Source of the DNA: Chloroflexota bacterium
Lineage (GTDB): Bacteria > Chloroflexota > Anaerolineae > Promineifilales > Promineifilaceae
Length of the DNA: 7,632 nt
Direction of reading: 5' to 3'
Assembly (NCBI GenBank): GCA_008501785.1
Contig: QQUD01000380.1
Coordinates: 1 to 7,632, forward strand
Each line of letters starts with the position of its first letter. Position 1 is the stretch's first letter. The notes beneath the pieces were generated by a model. It saw nothing but the letters and a program-made list of their open reading frames with translations, was not told the origin of the DNA and made no database searches. Position numbers and translations under genes: made by a program. This document shows positions 257 through 7,632 of this stretch, piece by piece.

Positions 257-257
257 T
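236..257 (+). promoter_or_regulatory. ribosome binding site and possible occluding hairpin at the TTG start of gene 1
   Basis: AAGG at 247-250 lies six bases before TTG at 257-259 and is the only Shine-Dalgarno-like element near the start. It sits in the 12-nt loop of a possible 5-bp hairpin pairing ACCGC (236-240) with GCGGT (253-257), so the stem would also take in the first base of the start codon. CCGC (237-240) can instead pair with GCGG at 225-228, which would leave the ribosome site open. The two pairings exclude each other. The stems are short, so regulation through them is only a suggestion. Confidence 0.35.
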
Positions 258-2971
258 TGTTAAATCGTTTCTTTCCCAATCGACAGCATCGACGTCAATA
301 CGCCGAATATTTGAAGTATCATCACCGTAATTTTGATGTGAAGGGGTTGACTACACAAGGTGTCTATACATTAGAGTTAGCCCAAGTTTTTGTCGAGCTT
401 GCGTTAGATCGACAAACAGCCGAAGCCGCTTCCGCCGATCCCATTCGTCCCATGGGAGCACCCTTACAAGAAGGTCGTCACGCTGTTTGGTCCTATCTCA
501 ATTCCAAGCAAATGATTGGACGAACATTGGTGTTTTTAGGGCCGCCGGGGAGTGGTAAAACGACATTGCTGAAGCATCTTGCCATTACCCTGGCACCAGC
601 CAAATCTGATCTGAAAATTACTCAGGGGTATAATCGTCTCCCCATCCTCTTGTTTTTACGTAACTATACAGATGAAATATTAAAAAATCCGCGATTTACA
701 ATCGTACACGCCCTGCAATCAGTATTACAAAAGTGGGAAATTGATGTTCCGGCTGAATGGTTTATCGATCAATTAAGGCGTGGACAGTGCCTAATCATGT
801 TAGATGGTTTGGATGAAGTTGCCGATTTCCAATCGCGGCAGCTGGTAGTGACTTGGGTGGAGCGCCAAATAGCTGCATTTGCCAAAAATCAGTTTGTTGT
901 TACGTCACGGCCGTTTGGCTATCGCAGCAACCCGCTGCGTAAAACGCTCGAACTTGAAGTGATGCCTTTCAGCATTAACCAGGTAGAGAACTTTGTAAAC
1001 AGATGGTATTTGGCCAATGAAATCATGGCCGCGCAGCGGGATGATCCCGGTGTACAAATGGAAGCACGCAATGGCGCTGAAGATTTGTTGATGCGTCTGC
1101 GACGGGCACATGTGCTGCTAGATATGGCCGTGAACCCATTATTGCTAACCATGATTGCCACCGTGCATCGTTATCGCAGCAGCTTGCCAGGGCGGCGGGT
1201 TGAACTGTATGCAGAAATTTGTGAAGTTTTTCTAGGGAAACGACAGCAGGCACGCGGTATGGTGTTTGATTTGACGCCAGCTCAAAAGCAACGTGTGCTG
1301 CAGCCGCTTGCCTATCATATGATGTGCCAACAGCAGCGAGAAATTTTGTTGCCTGAAGCTGTGAAAGTCGTGCAACCTCATTTGAATCGGGTGAGTCCAC
1401 AAAGCTCAGGTAAACAGTTTTTGGAATCAGTTGTTAATTCGAGTGGCTTGCTCGTAGAGCGCGAATCTGACCTTTATGGCTTTGCGCATTTGACATTTCA
1501 AGAATATTTGTCGGCTATGCATGTGCAGGATCGCCGCCTGGAAAGCGCGTTGATTGGTCGTGTTGAAGATACCTGGTGGCATGAAACGATTCGGCTTTAT
1601 GCGGCGCAAGTAGATGCAACCAATATTGTGAGAGCGTGCTTGAATAAACGCACCCCTTCGATTCAAGCATTAACGCTGGCGATGGAATGTTTGGAAGAGG
1701 CGCGAGAGGTTCACGCTGAACTACGCAACATTTTTGATAGATTAGAGCAAAGTGTTGATCATCAAAATCCAGAGGTACGCCGCATTTCAGCGGAAGTGAC
1801 GCTGGCCTTGCGTGTGCGTCGCATGATTCGGGTTGATGAAGACCGGCACATTGACCATTCATTTGTGACACATGCAGAGTATCAACTGTTTTTAGATGAA
1901 TCACGACGCTATAACCGATATTTTCAACCCGATCATTGGCCGGATTACACATTTCCAGCAGGACAAGGGCGTGAGGCAGTTGTGGGTGTACGGCCTGCTG
2001 ATGCAGTGGCATTTTGTGAATGGTTGAGTATGCGTGACCAGGGAGAATGGCGCTACCGTTTGCCTCGTAAAAATGAAATAGAGTCGATGATTGCGAAAGC
2101 AAAAGTGGTTGAATCTCGAGAAATGCCAGTTAGTTTTTGGGTGACTGTCTCTGGACAGGCTTTTGCGAATGCTAGATTTAGTCCAACAGGTACCGTTGAT
2201 GTGGAAACTTTGATGGGGCGTGTGCAAGACCGGTTTAGTGATGATTGGCGCATGCATGCCCGTTTGCCAAATTTACAACAAGCAAGCAAGCTGATTGTGT
2301 CTCGTGTTCGTCGCCGACAATTTACGGTAGGTGATTTAGACAGAAATTTGCAATTGAGCCGCATGGAAGCTCCCGATATTGTGCGGGATGTGAATGTGGT
2401 GCGAAATCGCGGAACGACTTCGCGGGCACAGGCTTTGGAAGCACGCATTGGATATGATTTGTTGTTGGCACAAGATTTAGATATAGAGCGTGCCCGTCTG
2501 CTTTCGTTGGATGAAGTGATGCGGGTTGCTGGTGCGCTGCATGATGAATTGGATCATGCACAGCACCTGGGAAATGCACCTGATTTGGCTCGTTCGCTGC
2601 TGCGCAGTTTGGAACGTGCTCATGCTCATGCACAAAACAAGCAGGTTGTATTTCAGCCGGAGTTGATTCGGGCCTTAACTGAGGCGCGAGGTGAAGCGAG
2701 TCAGTTGGTGCGAACGTTGCAGGATGCTCACAAACAGGCTCGACGACGTGTACGCACCAATTCGATTTTATATATCAGTGACCTATTGCAACAAGTGGAA
2801 TCGCTGCGTGACAGTGGTCCATCGCCCGATCGTGAAGAGGCTTTGCGTTTGTTGGAATCATATATTGATTTGTATCTAGATTTTTTGCTTTTGGAAGCGC
2901 GTATGAGTCAGCAGATGCCATCTTTTGAAGGGATTCGAGTGATTAAGGAGCGCAAGCAACCGATTGTTTAG
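257..2971 (+). CDS. NACHT-domain STAND NTPase with degenerate FGE-like segment
   Basis: This 904-residue protein is predicted to be a soluble signalling NTPase. Residues 1-50 carry the motif FDVKGL...YTLELAQVF, which I recall from related bacterial NACHT proteins. The NACHT core shows Walker A GPPGSGKT (95-102), Walker B LIMLDGLDE (179-187), the sensor-like VVTSRP (214-219), and the FAHLTFQEY motif (409-417) usual after NACHT. Residues about 520-640 resemble the first half of an FGE-sulfatase/C-type-lectin-like domain (VTHAEYQLFLD, DHWPDYTFPAG, AVVGVRPADAVAFCEWLS, YRLP). The later WGD, NVWEW and RGGSW hallmarks are missing, so catalysis is unlikely and a binding role is more plausible. Residues about 690-904 are helical, rich in Leu/Ala/Arg/Asp, with no recognised domain. 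The TTG start is chosen because TAG at 251-253 blocks the frame just upstream, AAGG precedes it, and the first ATG (residue 66) would delete the conserved amino end. NACHT proteins include antiphage sensors, but here a two-component pair lies downstream. I am sure of NACHT and less sure of its role. Confidence 0.88.
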   Translation: MLNRFFPNRQHRRQYAEYLKYHHRNFDVKGLTTQGVYTLELAQVFVELALDRQTAEAASADPIRPMGAPLQEGRHAVWSYLNSKQMIGRTLVFLGPPGSGKTTLLKHLAITLAPAKSDLKITQGYNRLPILLFLRNYTDEILKNPRFTIVHALQSVLQKWEIDVPAEWFIDQLRRGQCLIMLDGLDEVADFQSRQLVVTWVERQIAAFAKNQFVVTSRPFGYRSNPLRKTLELEVMPFSINQVENFVNRWYLANEIMAAQRDDPGVQMEARNGAEDLLMRLRRAHVLLDMAVNPLLLTMIATVHRYRSSLPGRRVELYAEICEVFLGKRQQARGMVFDLTPAQKQRVLQPLAYHMMCQQQREILLPEAVKVVQPHLNRVSPQSSGKQFLESVVNSSGLLVERESDLYGFAHLTFQEYLSAMHVQDRRLESALIGRVEDTWWHETIRLYAAQVDATNIVRACLNKRTPSIQALTLAMECLEEAREVHAELRNIFDRLEQSVDHQNPEVRRISAEVTLALRVRRMIRVDEDRHIDHSFVTHAEYQLFLDESRRYNRYFQPDHWPDYTFPAGQGREAVVGVRPADAVAFCEWLSMRDQGEWRYRLPRKNEIESMIAKAKVVESREMPVSFWVTVSGQAFANARFSPTGTVDVETLMGRVQDRFSDDWRMHARLPNLQQASKLIVSRVRRRQFTVGDLDRNLQLSRMEAPDIVRDVNVVRNRGTTSRAQALEARIGYDLLLAQDLDIERARLLSLDEVMRVAGALHDELDHAQHLGNAPDLARSLLRSLERAHAHAQNKQVVFQPELIRALTEARGEASQLVRTLQDAHKQARRRVRTNSILYISDLLQQVESLRDSGPSPDREEALRLLESYIDLYLDFLLLEARMSQQMPSFEGIRVIKERKQPIV
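907..914. repeat. ACGGCCGT palindrome, copy 1
   Basis: Exact copy inside the NACHT gene, read as part of Ser-Arg-Pro-Phe. The G-to-C skew change across it is mild. It belongs to a dispersed family of five exact copies in the window. Confidence 0.6.
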
Positions 2972-2982
2972 GAGTTTGTTGT

Positions 2983-4530
2983 ATGTCTGGCAGTGTATTG
3001 GATGCGCCTATAGGGTTAACTGCATTATTTGAAGAACCAGATCAGAAGGTGCGTGGGCCTTTTTTGGTTAGTGGGTTTGATACGTTTCTTGCAGATTTTT
3101 CTGGCTGGTTGTTGGACTTGTCAGAAGCGGTTCCCTGTATTTGGGTAAAAGCGACGGATTTACTGATTCAATCTGAATCAGATTTGTTGTTGTCGTTGCA
3201 GGGTGTGGCGCGGAAAAGTGGCTGGTTGAATTGTCCGGTTTTGCTATTTGTTGAGGGTGTTGTTGATGGTTTGCAGGAATATTCACCACTATCTTTAACT
3301 CGGTTTGTTGTGTTTGATGCAGTAGAACAACAGGAGCTGGAAACGGCCGTATTTCCCCAAAAGACCTTCCTCAATTTTCTTCAAACCAAAATGACCTTGC
3401 TCGAATTGGCCCCTTACGAGATACGCAAACCGGTGACCGGACCTCAATTTTTTGGACGGCAAGCCGAAATTGATCGTGTGCTGCAAAATCCCCAAACTAA
3501 CTACCTGTTTGTGGGGATTCGTCGTATTGGCAAAACATCACTGCTAAAAGAGATCAAGCGGCAGCTAGACCTGCGCGATCCGCCAGGACCGAATCAAATG
3601 CGCCGCGTTTATATTGATTGCACGGTGATTAGCTCGGAAGATGAGTTTATGCGGACGCTTACCTTTCAGCTTGAGCAGAGCGGACTCACCATTTTGGAAA
3701 GCCGTGCCCAAGACCCCCAGCGGTATCAAAAGCGTATTTTAGACCATTATGGGATGGTGCATGGCAGTCCGATTACATTTTTGTTAGATGAGTTTGACCG
3801 GCTGCTGTCACATATGAAGCCGGATTGGCCGCTGCTTCAGGTGTTGAATACGGCCGTTCAATCACAAAAAGTACGATTAATTGCGGCTGGTTTTCGTCTC
3901 GCCATGGATGCATCGATCAATCCCAATTCTCCTTTGTACAATGTGATGACCCCGATTCGGTTGGGCCGTTTGCCTGTGGTTGATGTGGAGCATATGGTGT
4001 TGGATCCATTACAGCGCATGGGCATTCAGGTGCAAGACCCGGCGCAAATGGTAACCCGTATTTACAGCGAAACGGCGGGGCTGCCCAATTATGTGCAGCA
4101 TTATTGCCATATTTTGTTAGAGCAGTTGATGGACAATGGTCAGCGCGTGGTTACACCTGACGACATTACAACCGTGCAAAAGAATCCTGCCTTTCGTGAT
4201 TTTGTTTTAAATACGTTTATGGCAAATACAGATTTGTTGGAACAGGCGATTGTGTATGCGATTATTGATGAGGGAGAAACGGCCGTTTTGCCCAATTTCA
4301 CCGAACGCCATATCCACAACTTCCTGAAAAACCGCAAATTATCGCTGCCATTTGAACAGGTTGATAGCGCTTGCCGCAAACTAGAAATGGCTGGTGTGTT
4401 TAACCGGGTCGATGCCGAATATACATTTGCTGTGCCGCTGTTTCAAACATTGCTGCGCCAGACGCGGGATGTTTGCTTTTTGTTTGAACGAACGCGTGAA
4501 GCGTTTCAAACTGAGAATGTTTTACCATGA
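2983..4530 (+). CDS. STAND/AAA-type P-loop ATPase with unrecognised amino-terminal domain
   Basis: This 515-residue protein is predicted to be cytoplasmic. Residues 1-135 alternate hydrophobic strands and helices (for example PCIWVKA, CPVLLFVEG, TRFVVFD), suggesting a small alpha/beta domain I cannot name. The ATPase begins at FFGRQAEID (156-164), with Walker A GIRRIGKTS (178-186) and Walker B ITFLLDEFD (264-272). A sensor-like strand VRLIAAGFR (297-305) and the helical motif GLPNYVQHYC (367-376) are typical of the AAA_16/archaeal-type ATPase lid. Residues about 415-495 look like a winged helix ending in GVFNRVDAEY (471-480). The ATG has a good ribosome site, TAGGAG at 2969-2974, which overlaps the stop codon of gene 1. 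The 11-nt gap implies co-translation with the NACHT gene. The same ATPase plus winged-helix module recurs in gene 3, so the two proteins may contact each other. ATP binding and hydrolysis look intact; the signal and partner are inferred. Confidence 0.85.
   Translation: MSGSVLDAPIGLTALFEEPDQKVRGPFLVSGFDTFLADFSGWLLDLSEAVPCIWVKATDLLIQSESDLLLSLQGVARKSGWLNCPVLLFVEGVVDGLQEYSPLSLTRFVVFDAVEQQELETAVFPQKTFLNFLQTKMTLLELAPYEIRKPVTGPQFFGRQAEIDRVLQNPQTNYLFVGIRRIGKTSLLKEIKRQLDLRDPPGPNQMRRVYIDCTVISSEDEFMRTLTFQLEQSGLTILESRAQDPQRYQKRILDHYGMVHGSPITFLLDEFDRLLSHMKPDWPLLQVLNTAVQSQKVRLIAAGFRLAMDASINPNSPLYNVMTPIRLGRLPVVDVEHMVLDPLQRMGIQVQDPAQMVTRIYSETAGLPNYVQHYCHILLEQLMDNGQRVVTPDDITTVQKNPAFRDFVLNTFMANTDLLEQAIVYAIIDEGETAVLPNFTERHIHNFLKNRKLSLPFEQVDSACRKLEMAGVFNRVDAEYTFAVPLFQTLLRQTRDVCFLFERTREAFQTENVLP
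3343..3350. repeat. ACGGCCGT palindrome, copy 2
   Basis: Exact copy in gene 2, read as Thr-Ala-Val. By hand count the 42 bases before it hold 14 G and 5 C, and the 60 after it about 6 G and 18 C, a sharp reversal of skew at the site. Confidence 0.65.
3850..3857. repeat. ACGGCCGT palindrome, copy 3
   Basis: Exact copy in gene 2, read as Thr-Ala-Val. The skew changes from moderately G-rich before to moderately C-rich after. Confidence 0.6.
4279..4286. repeat. ACGGCCGT palindrome, copy 4
   Basis: Exact copy in gene 2, read as Thr-Ala-Val. By hand count the 78 bases before it hold about 21 G and 6 C, and the 64 after it about 7 G and 22 C. Flanking bases extend the palindrome to AAACGGCCGTTT. 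Confidence 0.65.
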
Positions 4531-7370
4531 ATGCTTTCCAATTTGCCGAATTTACGAATCCACACGCTTTGCCAACCTCCGGCAGGGAAGAAAGCCTCCG
4601 GCAAATACTTAAAAGTGTATGCGCGGGTCATTGCTGTCGTGTTTTGGGACCCCGCTACCGGTCTAAAAGCCAGATATTAAAAACGGCCGCTGCTGCATTG
4701 TTTGAAAAAGGCACGCACTACGCCGCTTACCAAAGCTTGCGCGAAGTGCCGATAGACAGCGAAAGTGACTTCTTCCTCAATTTGGTGCGAGATGTGCCGC
4801 TGGTTAAAGAAGCCGATTTCTTTTCTGGGCTTTTTTCAGTGATTGAAAAAGACCTGGCCCCAAAACGCTTGTTTATCGGACAAACCCTTCCCCGCTCTGC
4901 TTTTGAATTCCAAAACGATTTACTACGGATTTTGCGTCGCAGCGAACGCAATTTGGTACTGTTTATTGATGATCTGGAGATGGCACCCCCCAATTTGGTG
5001 GCCGCCTTGCTCGGGGTGCTGCAAGCTGTTTACATGACAGTTGTCGATCAGCCAGGGCCGCGATTTCAGGCGGTTGTGTGTGGGTCACTTAGCTTTCGTC
5101 AATTGACACTCGAAAGTGCCTCCCATTTTGAGAGCATCTCTGATCTAGTGTTTGTGAGTGATATGGACCGGGCTGAACAAGAAGCCTTAGTGCGCAGCCT
5201 TGCGACCGATGCGGGCATAGAGCCTACAGAATTAGCCATTCCGACATTACTCGATCAAACGCAGGGTGATCGCTATTTGATCGAGCGTGTGATTGAGATT
5301 TGTGGCGAGCAAATGCAGCAAACAGGCAATGCCAGAGTTTCACCCGCTCGAATTGATGAAGCAATTGAGCTGTTTTTGAGACAAGACCCAGACGAAACGG
5401 TCACGGAAGCATTGGCCCAGTTGCAAAGTGAGCCTAACTTGCTCTCTTGTTCACTGCGCATATTGGAACGAGGGATTGTTCCCAGTGCTGAACTGCCGCT
5501 GGCTTCCAATGAAATGCCAACCCCGTTGGACTTAAGTGGTGTTTTTACAAAAGTGGACGAATCGTATCAGGTAAAGTGCAGCTTGTGGGATCGGCTCTTG
5601 AAAAAGCATTTGGTTGATTCTCATATTGGTGGTGTTTATGCAGTTGCCGGACATTGGCATGAGGCGATCCGTTATCTGGGGAAAGCTGTTCGTGATGGTT
5701 ATCAGGGTGTGATGACAGAACTGTTTACGGTTGTGATTAATGCGATTCATGTTAGTACAGAGTCTTCACAAGCATATGATTTATTGGCTAAGGGGCTAAA
5801 ATCGGCTTACCCTGGCACAACTGTGACGCTGTATCGTCGTCGAGAACAATGTTTGGAGCAGATTTATCCGGCTACCGATGATCCAAAGATGCATATTCTG
5901 GCAGAGGAAATTGATCGCCCAGAAATTGAGGCGCTGAATGGGCCAGATTATTCGTTGGTGTCTGCGGATGAGCAGGATATTTTGTTGTTGATTCCGCTGC
6001 GAGCTGGCAGCGTGCGCTCAACGCCGCTCGGGTTGGTGGCCTTGGGTGGATTGATAACAGCGTATTCGCCCTATCAAGGGCGACGTCAGGTGCTGCAATT
6101 TGTGGGATTTTTGCATCAGGCAGCACGGGCTATTTTACGTGCCTCTTTGCTAGAAGAGGATGAGCGGCGGCGGCGACTTTTGGAGAAGGTGTCGAATATT
6201 ACGCCTGATATTAGTGCAAATTTGGACAAGGAGAATTTGTATTACGCTGTGTTGAGCCAGGTGTTAAACGCGGTGCCCGGTGCAGATAATGTATGCCTGG
6301 TGTCGTTGAATAAGGCGTCACAACAATTGATTATTGCGCCTGAAAGCCATCGGTATTATCGGGCGGATGGTTGGTTTTCAGGTGGTTCATATAAGGTGGA
6401 GCCTAGCGGGGGAGTGGGTATAGCGGGGTGGGTGATTGAAAACGGCCGTTCTCTTCTCATCAACGATGTTAGTCAGTACGCAGCCTATCTTCCGCTCATC
6501 TCAACCACACAATCTGAATTGTGTGTACCCATTGAATTGAGTGCCGATGAACGAATGGCACTAGTTGTGGAGAGTAACCATTTGAACGCCTTCACAGCAG
6601 CGGATGAAATGTTGTTGAAGCTGTTGGCAGAGCATGTCAGCGTGGCGATTAAAAATGCGGTGCAGTTTGAGGCTGCCCGAGAGCGCCAACTGCGTGAACA
6701 AACCGCGCTCATGGCAACTGGTTTTATTCACGACATCAACAGCGCTGTGGCTAGTATTCCCGATTTGGTAGATGAACTGCGCTCTAAGCTGGATGCGGGG
6801 CGTGATGTTGCAGATCCGCTTGCAGATTTAGAAAGCAGCGCGATGGTTACGGAACGGGTGAGCAAGCGCCTACGCGATTATGTGGTGACGGGCCAGCAAG
6901 AAGCAAAACCTGCCAACCTGGAACGTCTCATTAAAAACGCAATGACGATTAGCCGTAAACATCAACCGCCTTATGTCAAGACTGTGTATAACATGAATGG
7001 ATTGAATCTGCACGTATTGGTCGATGTGTTGTGGATTGAGTTGATGTTTAAAAATTTGCTGGTGAATGCGTATGAATCGATGCCCTATGACCGCAAAGGG
7101 GTGGTTAGCTTCAATGTGGAAATGGAGCCAGATTTCATCTTGATTCGCATCGGAGATAATGGCAAGGGAATCCCGGATCATCAGCTTGCCAGCATTTTTG
7201 AGATGGGGTTTACGACGAAAGGGAAACGCCGTATGCATGGCGTTGGTTTGTATCATTGCCGACAGATTGTGCAGGCTCACCGGGGCCGCATTTCTGTAGA
7301 GAGTACGGTGGGTGAGGGAACTGAATTCCAGGTGCGTCTGCCGCGTCATGAGCCTGAAGAGAATCCGTAG
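4527..7370 (+). CDS. soluble hybrid histidine kinase: degenerate ATPase, two GAF domains, kinase core
   Basis: This 947-residue protein has no membrane segment or signal peptide, so it should sense inside the cell. Residues about 18-280 form an AAA/STAND-like module with P-loop remnant GPRYRSKS (41-48), which keeps Lys47 but has Ser where the glycine should be, and Walker B NLVLFIDDLE (142-151). A winged-helix-like region (about 290-362) contains GVFTKVDESY (338-347), nearly identical to gene 2. Residues about 396-540 are a divergent GAF domain and 560-712 a clearer one (GVGIAGWVIENGRSLLINDV). The kinase follows: H-box FIHDINSA with His735 as likely phosphoacceptor, N-box NLLVNAYE (843-850), G1 DNGKGIP (877-883), F-box FEMGFTTKGK (891-900), G2 HGVGLYH (904-910) and GTEF (931-934). 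The H-box is atypical, lacking the usual proline. The start ATG overlaps the gene 2 stop as ATGA with only a weak GAG upstream, so coupled translation is likely. The architecture recalls HstK-type ATPase-GAF-kinases but lacks their Ser/Thr kinase. The probable target is the receiver encoded next. Confidence 0.9.
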   Translation: MNAFQFAEFTNPHALPTSGREESLRQILKSVCAGHCCRVLGPRYRSKSQILKTAAAALFEKGTHYAAYQSLREVPIDSESDFFLNLVRDVPLVKEADFFSGLFSVIEKDLAPKRLFIGQTLPRSAFEFQNDLLRILRRSERNLVLFIDDLEMAPPNLVAALLGVLQAVYMTVVDQPGPRFQAVVCGSLSFRQLTLESASHFESISDLVFVSDMDRAEQEALVRSLATDAGIEPTELAIPTLLDQTQGDRYLIERVIEICGEQMQQTGNARVSPARIDEAIELFLRQDPDETVTEALAQLQSEPNLLSCSLRILERGIVPSAELPLASNEMPTPLDLSGVFTKVDESYQVKCSLWDRLLKKHLVDSHIGGVYAVAGHWHEAIRYLGKAVRDGYQGVMTELFTVVINAIHVSTESSQAYDLLAKGLKSAYPGTTVTLYRRREQCLEQIYPATDDPKMHILAEEIDRPEIEALNGPDYSLVSADEQDILLLIPLRAGSVRSTPLGLVALGGLITAYSPYQGRRQVLQFVGFLHQAARAILRASLLEEDERRRRLLEKVSNITPDISANLDKENLYYAVLSQVLNAVPGADNVCLVSLNKASQQLIIAPESHRYYRADGWFSGGSYKVEPSGGVGIAGWVIENGRSLLINDVSQYAAYLPLISTTQSELCVPIELSADERMALVVESNHLNAFTAADEMLLKLLAEHVSVAIKNAVQFEAARERQLREQTALMATGFIHDINSAVASIPDLVDELRSKLDAGRDVADPLADLESSAMVTERVSKRLRDYVVTGQQEAKPANLERLIKNAMTISRKHQPPYVKTVYNMNGLNLHVLVDVLWIELMFKNLLVNAYESMPYDRKGVVSFNVEMEPDFILIRIGDNGKGIPDHQLASIFEMGFTTKGKRRMHGVGLYHCRQIVQAHRGRISVESTVGEGTEFQVRLPRHEPEENP
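4683..4690. repeat. ACGGCCGC, one-base variant of the palindrome
   Basis: This copy differs from the others in the last base and lies in gene 3 as Thr-Ala-Ala. No clear skew change is seen here, and it may be coincidental. Confidence 0.35.
6442..6449. repeat. ACGGCCGT palindrome, copy 5
   Basis: Exact copy in gene 3, extending to AACGGCCGTT and read in a different frame as Asn-Gly-Arg. By hand count the 80 bases before it hold about 38 G and 7 C, and the 70 after it about 8 G and 23 C. This is the sharpest skew reversal in the window. Confidence 0.65.
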
Positions 7371-7373
7371 GTT

Positions 7374-7386
7374 AAGACGCTGTCTT
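7374..7386 (+). repeat. short hairpin AAGAC-GCT-GTCTT just after the kinase gene
   Basis: A perfect 5-bp inverted repeat (7374-7378 with 7382-7386) encloses a GCT loop and starts three bases past the kinase stop. A T-G wobble could add a sixth pair. No T-run follows, so it is not a convincing terminator. It resembles, in inverted orientation, the longer hairpin at 7409-7427. Confidence 0.45.
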
Positions 7387-7408
7387 GTATCAACCTGTGG
7401 TTTGTTTA

Positions 7409-7427
7409 GACAAAACAGCGTTTTGTC
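7409..7427 (+). repeat. 8-bp perfect inverted repeat upstream of the response regulator
   Basis: GACAAAAC (7409-7416) and GTTTTGTC (7420-7427) are perfect complements around an AGC loop. The element ends six bases before the TAGGAGG ribosome site of the regulator gene. It could be a palindromic operator or an RNA hairpin that tunes regulator expression relative to the kinase. It lacks a GC-rich stem and a following T-run, so an intrinsic terminator is unlikely. Its 9-mer CGTTTTGTC (7419-7427) also occurs at 53-61 in the operon leader. Confidence 0.5.
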
Positions 7428-7447
7428 CTACGTTAGGAGGAGATTGT

Positions 7448-7632
7448 ATGACGGAATTGTCGCCACACAAGAAGAGAATTTTGGTGGTAGAGGATCAAGA
7501 GCAGTTTTATGCACCGGTGCGTCGCTGGTTGGAAGATGAAGGGTATCATGTGACGCTGGCAACGAATTACAAGGATGCTCATGCTGCGATTCATACGCGT
7601 CATTTTCATCTTGCTGTTGTGGATATGAGCCT
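7448..7632 (+). CDS. response regulator, receiver domain (partial, runs off the window)
   Basis: Sixty-one complete codons are visible, starting MTELSPHKKRILVVEDQEQF. The receiver hallmarks are the strand ILVV, the acidic pair Glu15-Asp16 for metal binding, and VVDMS with Asp59 as the expected phosphorylation site. The last two bases, CT, begin a leucine codon, which fits the usual D-M-x-L pattern. The start ATG has a near-perfect ribosome site TAGGAGG (7434-7440) seven bases upstream, the strongest in the window, so the regulator may be made in excess over the kinase. It lies 77 nt after the histidine kinase gene and is the likely phosphoryl acceptor of His735. The effector portion is outside the window, so DNA binding, an enzymatic output, or a stand-alone receiver are all possible. 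Confidence 0.9.
   Translation, partial: MTELSPHKKRILVVEDQEQFYAPVRRWLEDEGYHVTLATNYKDAHAAIHTRHFHLAVVDMS

Follow-up and report, generated by a model that had tools for sequence, protein, structure and literature searches.

The octamer ACGGCCGT is a highly iterated palindrome of a group of Chloroflexota genomes, and its average copy is the exact centre of a strand-asymmetric halo in which the 5' flank is G-rich and C-poor on either strand. In two of these genomes, G001 and G002, the folded GC skew at 4-fold positions 4–30 bp from 2,097 sites is +0.39 (z 47.6); folding means that the skew is read on the strand where the flank lies 5', with every position assigned to its nearest site. The halo points to a process acting at the octamer copies. 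An octamer-specific factor that starts short outward 5'-to-3' DNA turnover is the mechanism that we tentatively infer, and we give it somewhat less than an even chance.

The window analysed here is a stretch of 7,632 nucleotides from QQUD01000380.1 (GCA_008501785.1; Chloroflexota bacterium, Promineifilaceae), read on the forward strand. It contains three complete forward-strand genes, and all five ACGGCCGT sites fall within them. The features of the window are as follows; palindromes and flanks have no strand, and the percentages give the rank of a site's 30-bp skew step among window positions.
257–2971, forward strand: NACHT/STAND protein gene
907–914: ACGGCCGT octamer, codons TCA CGG CCG TTT of the NACHT/STAND gene; 30-bp step in the top 38%
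2983–4530, forward strand: AAA/STAND-like ATPase gene
3283–3410: 60-bp flanks of the 3343 site; G:C 14:11 before, 6:18 after
3343–3350: ACGGCCGT octamer, Thr-Ala-Val frame of the AAA/STAND ATPase gene; 30-bp step in the top 0.9%
3850–3857: ACGGCCGT octamer, Thr-Ala-Val frame; 30-bp step in the top 25%
4219–4346: 60-bp flanks of the 4279 site; G:C 19:5 before, 6:20 after
4279–4286: ACGGCCGT octamer, Thr-Ala-Val frame; 30-bp step in the top 0.3%
4527–7370, forward strand: gene for a protein with GAF and HATPase domains
4683–4690: ACGGCCGC, a single-base variant of ACGGCCGT that has a weak halo in G001, G002 and G324
6382–6509: 60-bp flanks of the 6442 site; G:C 28:5 before, 7:21 after
6442–6449: ACGGCCGT octamer, Asn-Gly-Arg frame of the GAF/HATPase gene; 30-bp step in the top 0.2%
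start near 7448: response regulator gene

The genes for the NACHT/STAND protein, the second STAND-like ATPase, the GAF/HATPase protein and the response regulator form a single run at 257–7632 that resembles a signalling or defence cluster.

The five copies of ACGGCCGT in the window compare with 0.10 expected, and none of 200 shuffles reaches five. The initial annotation had located all five sites correctly and had described a reversal from G-rich to C-rich at 3343, 4279 and 6442, where the steps indeed rank in the top 0.9% (3343), 0.3% (4279) and 0.2% (6442) of all positions in the window. Its hand-counted G:C values, for flanks of unstated length, roughly agree with the exact 60-bp counts. 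At 907 and 3850, where it saw a weaker shift in the same direction (60-bp G:C 16:11 before and 14:17 after, and 19:13 before and 13:13 after), each site alone is within chance (top 38% and 25%). The sum over the five sites has a p of 1e-5 to 3e-5 against random five-position sets (four flank ranges, 200,000 sets each). At the 4-fold positions of the window that lie 4–30 bp from the sites, C:G is 1:11 on the 5' sides and 9:3 on the 3' sides.

The genome-wide tests were made on related genomes and not on the window's own genome. A profile scan identified three related loci in MAGs titled Chloroflexi, Chloroflexota and Anaerolineae bacterium (genomes G001–G003), which hold 12,611, 11,524 and 6,919 copies of ACGGCCGT and 237, 218 and 46 copies of the reversed control. 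Among 300 other genomes of the phylum, the maximum is 646 copies. The group considered here comprises 36 genomes (G001–G003 and G304–G336); it was bounded after the counts were seen, within a list of relatives that carries no kinship labels, and the remaining 23 of the 59 listed relatives have at most 646 copies. Within the group, ACGGCCGT is present in 2,887–13,708 copies in 22 genomes, and four genomes use other octamers: TCGGCCGA in G307 and G331 (7,668 and 9,414 copies), TGCCGGCA in G311 (3,665 copies, with 14 of ACGGCCGT), and GCGGCCGC in G314 (68 copies in a 40-kb sample). This makes 26 of the 36 genomes octamer-bearing. The other ten are G305, G309, G317, G320, G321, G323, G327, G333, G335, and G336, of which only G305, G317, G323, and G336 were sampled for other words; G305 and G317 have intermediate ACGGCCGT counts of 1,189 and 1,727. 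The octamer is over-represented (716 copies in the G001 sample versus 71.6 expected from 5-mer and 4-mer counts), and its density is approximately 1.0–2.2 per kb (1.05–2.19 in well-sampled octamer genomes). In G001, G002, and G324 combined there are 2.06 octamers per kb in open frames and 2.00 between frames.

Some genomes of the group have looser patterns. G321 (4.7 Mb) contains 886 copies of TGCCGGCA, possibly a weak octamer of the G311 kind. CGGCCG is raised to 2.9–5.8 per kb, with the outer base not fixed, in G305 (L109), G317 (L115–L116), G325 (L110, L113, L114) and G323 (L087–L092); the halo is weak or absent in these four genomes, which may carry a loose or decaying octamer system.

Of the octamers present in 40 or more copies in G001 and G002, 4,265 in all, ACGGCCGT ranks first by the z of its halo, and ranks 2–14 overlap ACGGCCGT; the z values have a spread of 2.1. 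Over 331 kb of G001 (671 full-flank sites), the skew is positive before the octamer and negative after it in both forward and reverse genes, and a step of the same sign is present within 15 bp of 95 intergenic sites. We give next to no credence to the reading that the steps are an artefact of one window, produced by chance, codon usage, transcription or replication. As that reading would have it, two of the window's five sites are within chance when taken alone, but the z exceeds 33 in each of the two genomes, both flanks leave the baseline in the expected direction in 20 of 20 G001 stretches, and the sign is equal in both gene orientations and in intergenic DNA. The equal sign in forward genes, reverse genes and intergenic DNA also led us to reject a transcription or coding effect, and the shift of both flanks in all 20 stretches a one-sided replication effect. 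A comparison of genomic copies with control positions, which the initial annotation had proposed, was run on the relatives and gave an average step at the copies and none equal at the controls. Its idea of the palindrome as the exact boundary of a strand-asymmetric bias is borne out across the relatives, independently of gene direction and with the full octamer needed.

The folded 4-fold skew of G001 is +0.63 at 4–6 bp, +0.51 at 7–10 bp, +0.47 at 11–15 bp, +0.38 at 16–20 bp, and +0.32 at 21–30 bp, and drops to about +0.10–0.17 past 30 bp. The pooled data of G001, G002, and G324 are fitted by 0.63 exp(-d/18.8 bp) + 0.12, with an e-fold distance of 18.8 ± 1.0 bp. The sawtooth within single genes described in the initial annotation was therefore only partly right, as the skew in the relatives falls exponentially, with an e-fold of ~19 bp, and then levels off at ~+0.12 toward the nearest site. 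Isolated sites (390) have a stronger halo than clustered ones (470), with +0.70 versus +0.55 at 4–6 bp. Outside the called open frames of the same three genomes, the skew is +0.49 at 4–6 bp and +0.08 at 21–30 bp.

A process that begins at the site and ends at a random distance from it should give a single exponential with a plateau, and the decay thus supports turnover from an octamer-specific factor. A dimeric octamer-specific protein, which may be a nickase, an endonuclease or a recombination factor, would start DNA turnover at the palindrome. DNA would then be removed or replaced outward, 5'-to-3', on both strands, over tens of bases, and the strand with its 3' end toward the site would be left single-stranded or used as a template. 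Asymmetric errors or repair on that strand could deplete C and enrich G. Silent sites in genes of either orientation, and intergenic sites, show the step in mirror symmetry, consistent with such turnover, and the directional footprint tells in which direction and over what length the putative factor would act and which sequence it would have to recognise. Turnover leaves unaccounted for the plateau of 4-fold skew toward the nearest octamer, which reaches 400 bp and is small, ~+0.03, outside open frames (G001, G002, and G324).

The G preference peaks at 3–4 bp and the effect is largely confined to the first 30 bp beside the octamer, as would also be expected if the flanks were a wide degenerate site of an octamer-binding protein, selected for G-rich halves through extended contacts or DNA shape. 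We consider such an extended binding site improbable, because the flanks contain no fixed positions past 3–4 bp and no helical period, the decay is smooth and exponential, the flanks lack general pairing, and their 4-fold divergence is not reduced (see below). The only period in the flanks is that of the codons. The absence of a 10–11 bp period and of general flank pairing agrees with turnover. It was also the ground for rejecting two structural candidates: wrapping around a protein, for which a 10–11 bp period was sought, and selection for a hairpin or cruciform, since flank complementarity at register is 0.93–1.04 of the marginal expectation (713 sites). At intergenic octamers of G001, G002, and G324, flanks at 6–10 bp pair at register 1.16 times as often as expected (280 sites), and some of these octamers may lie in terminators, which could explain the excess.

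Near the sites of G001, C at 4-fold positions is replaced mostly by G: between ~131–600 bp and 7–15 bp from the site, C decreases from ~0.34 to 0.20 and G increases from ~0.42 to 0.57, and T shows no rise (0.11–0.13 and 0.09–0.10, respectively). At 2-fold sites near octamers, where only transitions are silent, C/(C+T) goes down and G/(A+G) goes up, and therefore transitions take part. C-to-T deamination alone fails, because C mainly becomes G and 4-fold T is not raised. C-to-T change, which the initial annotation gave as an example of strand-biased mutation, is therefore not supported as the main cause; simple deamination is rejected, and simple damage to exposed C is insufficient for turnover as well. 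Repair, nicking, gene conversion and polymerase restart, which the initial annotation had also listed, are possible causes of the skew step. Away from sites, GC and AT skew are weakly correlated (-0.25, 43 stretches).

The main rival to turnover is biased fixation instead of mutation, in which the octamer would be a Chi-like palindromic recombination or loading signal. The G-rich, C-poor, 3'-ended flanks would be weakly selected or favoured by gene conversion if they offer better loading to a protein of strand exchange or translocation. We regard this biased fixation as a possible but rather unlikely cause. The preference order on the 5'-flank strand is G > A > T > C at 2-fold and 4-fold sites alike, and this common order fits biased fixation. 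So does the effect on codon positions 1–2, whose skew in G001, G002 and G324 is about +0.20 at 4–6 bp and likewise at 4–10 bp. GGTGG, GTGG and TGGTG are enriched 1.6–1.8 fold near sites, and RecA is reported, in a passage of PMC3763553, to prefer TGG repeats. Against biased fixation, GGGG is enriched above these Chi-like words (2.0 fold). It is a difficulty for turnover that preferences in loading or pairing are likewise compatible with a G-rich strand ending 3' at the site, with no turnover needed.

The full octamer is required for the halo in G001 and G002. In G001 the skew is +0.40 ± 0.01 at 897 ACGGCCGT sites versus +0.01 ± 0.02 at 356 non-palindromic NCGGCCGN sites, and in G002 it is +0.40 at ACGGCCGT versus +0.02 at 270 non-octamer CGGCCG sites. 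Other words have skews in G001 of -0.02 (TCGGCCGA, 15 sites), +0.04 (GCGGCCGC, 31 sites) and -0.14 (CCGGCCGG, 40 sites). Twelve single-base variants of ACGGCCGT were tested in G001, G002, and G324, each in both orientations. The variant GCGGCCGT/ACGGCCGC has a weak halo (+0.13/+0.16 in the two orientations), ACTGCCGT (16 copies) reaches a z of 3.1 in one orientation, and all the others are within z 2. The octamer rule is not perfectly sharp, because a small halo is kept at non-palindromic NCGGCCGN in G324 (+0.11 ± 0.02, 209 sites) and G317 (+0.14 ± 0.04, 117 sites); the halo at these non-octamer CGGCCG sites of G324 speaks against turnover.

Natural swaps of the octamer are accompanied by a matching halo, at TGCCGGCA in G311, TCGGCCGA in G307 and G331, and GCGGCCGC in G314. 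In nine genomes (G001, G002, G324, G318, G322, G311, G307, G331, and G314), the palindrome that ranks first by halo, among 2 to 92 testable ones per genome, is the octamer which that genome uses; in G323, no palindrome has a halo of that kind. Of the 26 octamer-bearing genomes 12 were sampled, and 11 of these have the halo, including G310 (39 sites) and G003 (just 5 sites); G325 has +0.12 ± 0.15 at 12 octamers only. The octamer dependence and the swaps with their matching halos favour turnover. They may reflect a new sequence-specific system that starts short outward strand-directed turnover at thousands of octamers and whose specificity has been re-targeted several times inside a single Chloroflexota group (ACGGCCGT, TCGGCCGA, GCGGCCGC, TGCCGGCA) with an unchanged footprint, a broader reading that we hold plausible at roughly one chance in three. 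If it is true, the highly iterated palindromes here are no passive repeats but the places that a working DNA-processing machine recognises.

In homologs, the halo goes along with the site, in keeping with turnover. At ten site positions of rpoB in 30 genomes, the skew at 4–30 bp is +0.26 with the octamer versus -0.07 at the corresponding codons of genomes whose nearest site is more than 150 bp away, and eight of the ten positions agree with a halo that follows the site. Homologs of one G001 stretch provided 29 alignments with 60 one-sided sites, which are partly non-independent. There, the skew with and without the site is +0.36 and +0.15 at 4–30 bp (36 versus 17 events), +0.24 and +0.02 at 31–60 bp, and +0.11 and +0.13 at 61–120 bp. 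Because the site-less homologs keep +0.15 at 4–30 bp, the larger part of the skew, though not the whole, accompanies the site. This residue, seen in one of the two tests, counts against turnover and for the reading that composition comes first, with octamers arising or surviving at pre-existing changes from G-rich to C-rich sequence. We find that reading highly improbable, given the skew of -0.07 versus +0.26 at the same rpoB codons and given that non-octamer CGGCCG in G001 and G002 is not at any step.

Octamers are maintained between G001 and G002. In a 94.8-kb alignment with 92.9% identity (94.2 kb before sequence was added and the identity filter was made stricter), 182 octamers are in common and 7 and 4 are unshared; of all octamers 61% are identical, and of 194 further places with CGGCCG, 153 retain it. 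A looser alignment has 173 octamers in common, with 8 and 6 unshared. The maintenance of 182 octamers, with 11 unshared, is in line with turnover at these sites.

Divergence between the two genomes does not decide between mutation and biased fixation. At 4-fold sites it is not reduced in the flanks (0.175 ± 0.010 at 4–30 bp versus 0.160 ± 0.004 past 60 bp). The models give a lower bound of 0.167 for raised mutation and 0.153 for weak selection, and the observed value exceeds the selection prediction by about two standard errors, against biased fixation. The 2-fold A/G divergence near octamers, 0.090 ± 0.013, is closer to selection (0.105) than to mutation (0.130); it favours biased fixation, and turnover lacks a clear sign of raised mutation. 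The 2-fold C/T divergence near octamers is 0.106 ± 0.015, between the two model predictions (0.101 and 0.115). Divergence at codon positions 1–2 is 0.025 past 250 bp and 0.034–0.038 within 30 bp, with 4-fold divergence little changed. Since it rises toward the sites, octamers may occupy less constrained parts of proteins.

What highly iterated palindromes do is the question that these data address. ACGGCCGT is similar to HIP1 (GCGATCGC) and other cyanobacterial highly iterated palindromes, as described in passages of PMC4390886, in being a palindromic octamer that occurs ~1–2 times per kb in and between genes, and in that exceptional genomes use another octamer. The features that define the class, strong over-representation and a density of ~1 per kb in and between genes, were both found here. 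The phylum is different, however, and the octamers are ACGGCCGT, TCGGCCGA, GCGGCCGC and TGCCGGCA, not GCGATCGC. In addition, the strong strand-asymmetric halo (+0.39) has no comparable counterpart on two HIP1 plasmids, which were compared in place of chromosomes. At 4–10, 11–20, and 21–30 bp, the skew is -0.04, +0.07, and -0.06 (± 0.08 to 0.10) on S. elongatus pANL (95 sites), and +0.10, +0.13, and +0.05 (± 0.09 to 0.10) on Trichormus plasmid A (200 kb, 122 sites). Because plasmid A has +0.44 ± 0.12 at 1–3 bp, a weak or very short HIP1 halo is still possible there. The passages of PMC4390886 on cyanobacterial palindromes mention flank bias for one cyanobacterium and do not mention skew. We found no report of such a halo, or of highly iterated palindromes in Chloroflexota, in the open literature searched, judged mostly by title.

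For HIP1, passages of PMC4390886 propose a model of mismatch repair directed by G-meC. Applied here as a ratchet, methylated GC would direct repair and the halo would be a by-product of biased repair near nicks, which we judge to be quite improbable. The octamers hold GC, and their density of 1.0–2.2 per kb is close to the set point argued for in those passages; the same passages base their argument on repair that reaches ~1 kb, many times the 19 bp found here, and HIP1 on the two plasmids is without a comparable halo. The several natural specificity swaps can be tested against gene content, and three methyltransferase families were searched. The C5-methyltransferase family PF00145 does not separate the genomes (15 of 26 octamer-bearing and 3 of 10 others; Fisher p 0.26). 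HIP1 has a resident methyltransferase for its inner sequence. The search found no PF00145 match for 11 of the 26 octamer-bearing genomes, which would weaken the repair ratchet, although some genomes are incomplete (in G001 and G316 even rpoB was missed). The N4/N6 methyltransferase family PF01555 is present in all 26 octamer-bearing genomes and in 6 of the 10 others, a weak separation that favours the ratchet, with a Fisher p of 0.004 that is uncorrected for the three families tried; in 2 of the 37 genomes with a match, the match is below the curated cut-off. Because the best PF01555 proteins of 30 genomes, one per genome, split into 25 groups at 45% identity, no shared enzyme is seen, contrary to the ratchet. 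PF02086 also gives no separation (24 of 26 versus 8 of 10; Fisher p 0.30). That the search of these three families identified no responsible enzyme is likewise a point against turnover. The D12-type methyltransferases of PF02086 occur in 35 of 41 searched genomes, often as one strong full-length match each, with the following and other examples.
G001:C98:104640-105371: PF02086 match
G002:C448:16905-17636: PF02086 match

The E. coli Chi sequence has G/T-rich surroundings, is not palindromic, and acts in one direction. Like Chi, the octamer is a short signal toward which the G-rich strand points with its 3' end, and GGTGG-type words are enriched near it, but it is a perfect palindrome, its halo is two-sided and symmetric, and G is favoured together with A rather than T. 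The DNA uptake sequences of Neisseria and Haemophilus are short words that occur genome-wide and differ between related lineages, as the octamers do; they are not palindromic, whereas the octamers are. We know of no such halo around DNA uptake sequences. At replication termini, GC skew switches on a megabase scale, once per chromosome. The octamer halo shares the change from G-rich to C-rich on one strand, but it is defined by the octamer, has a scale of 19 bp, and occurs thousands of times per genome. Strand composition can thus be set locally around an 8-bp signal, regardless of gene direction, and such local halos matter for skew-based genome analysis and for the treatment of 4-fold sites as neutral. 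Other short dispersed repeats are present in many copies in G001, G002 or both, for example at L008:725-756, L012:2240-2446, and L015:14792-14853.
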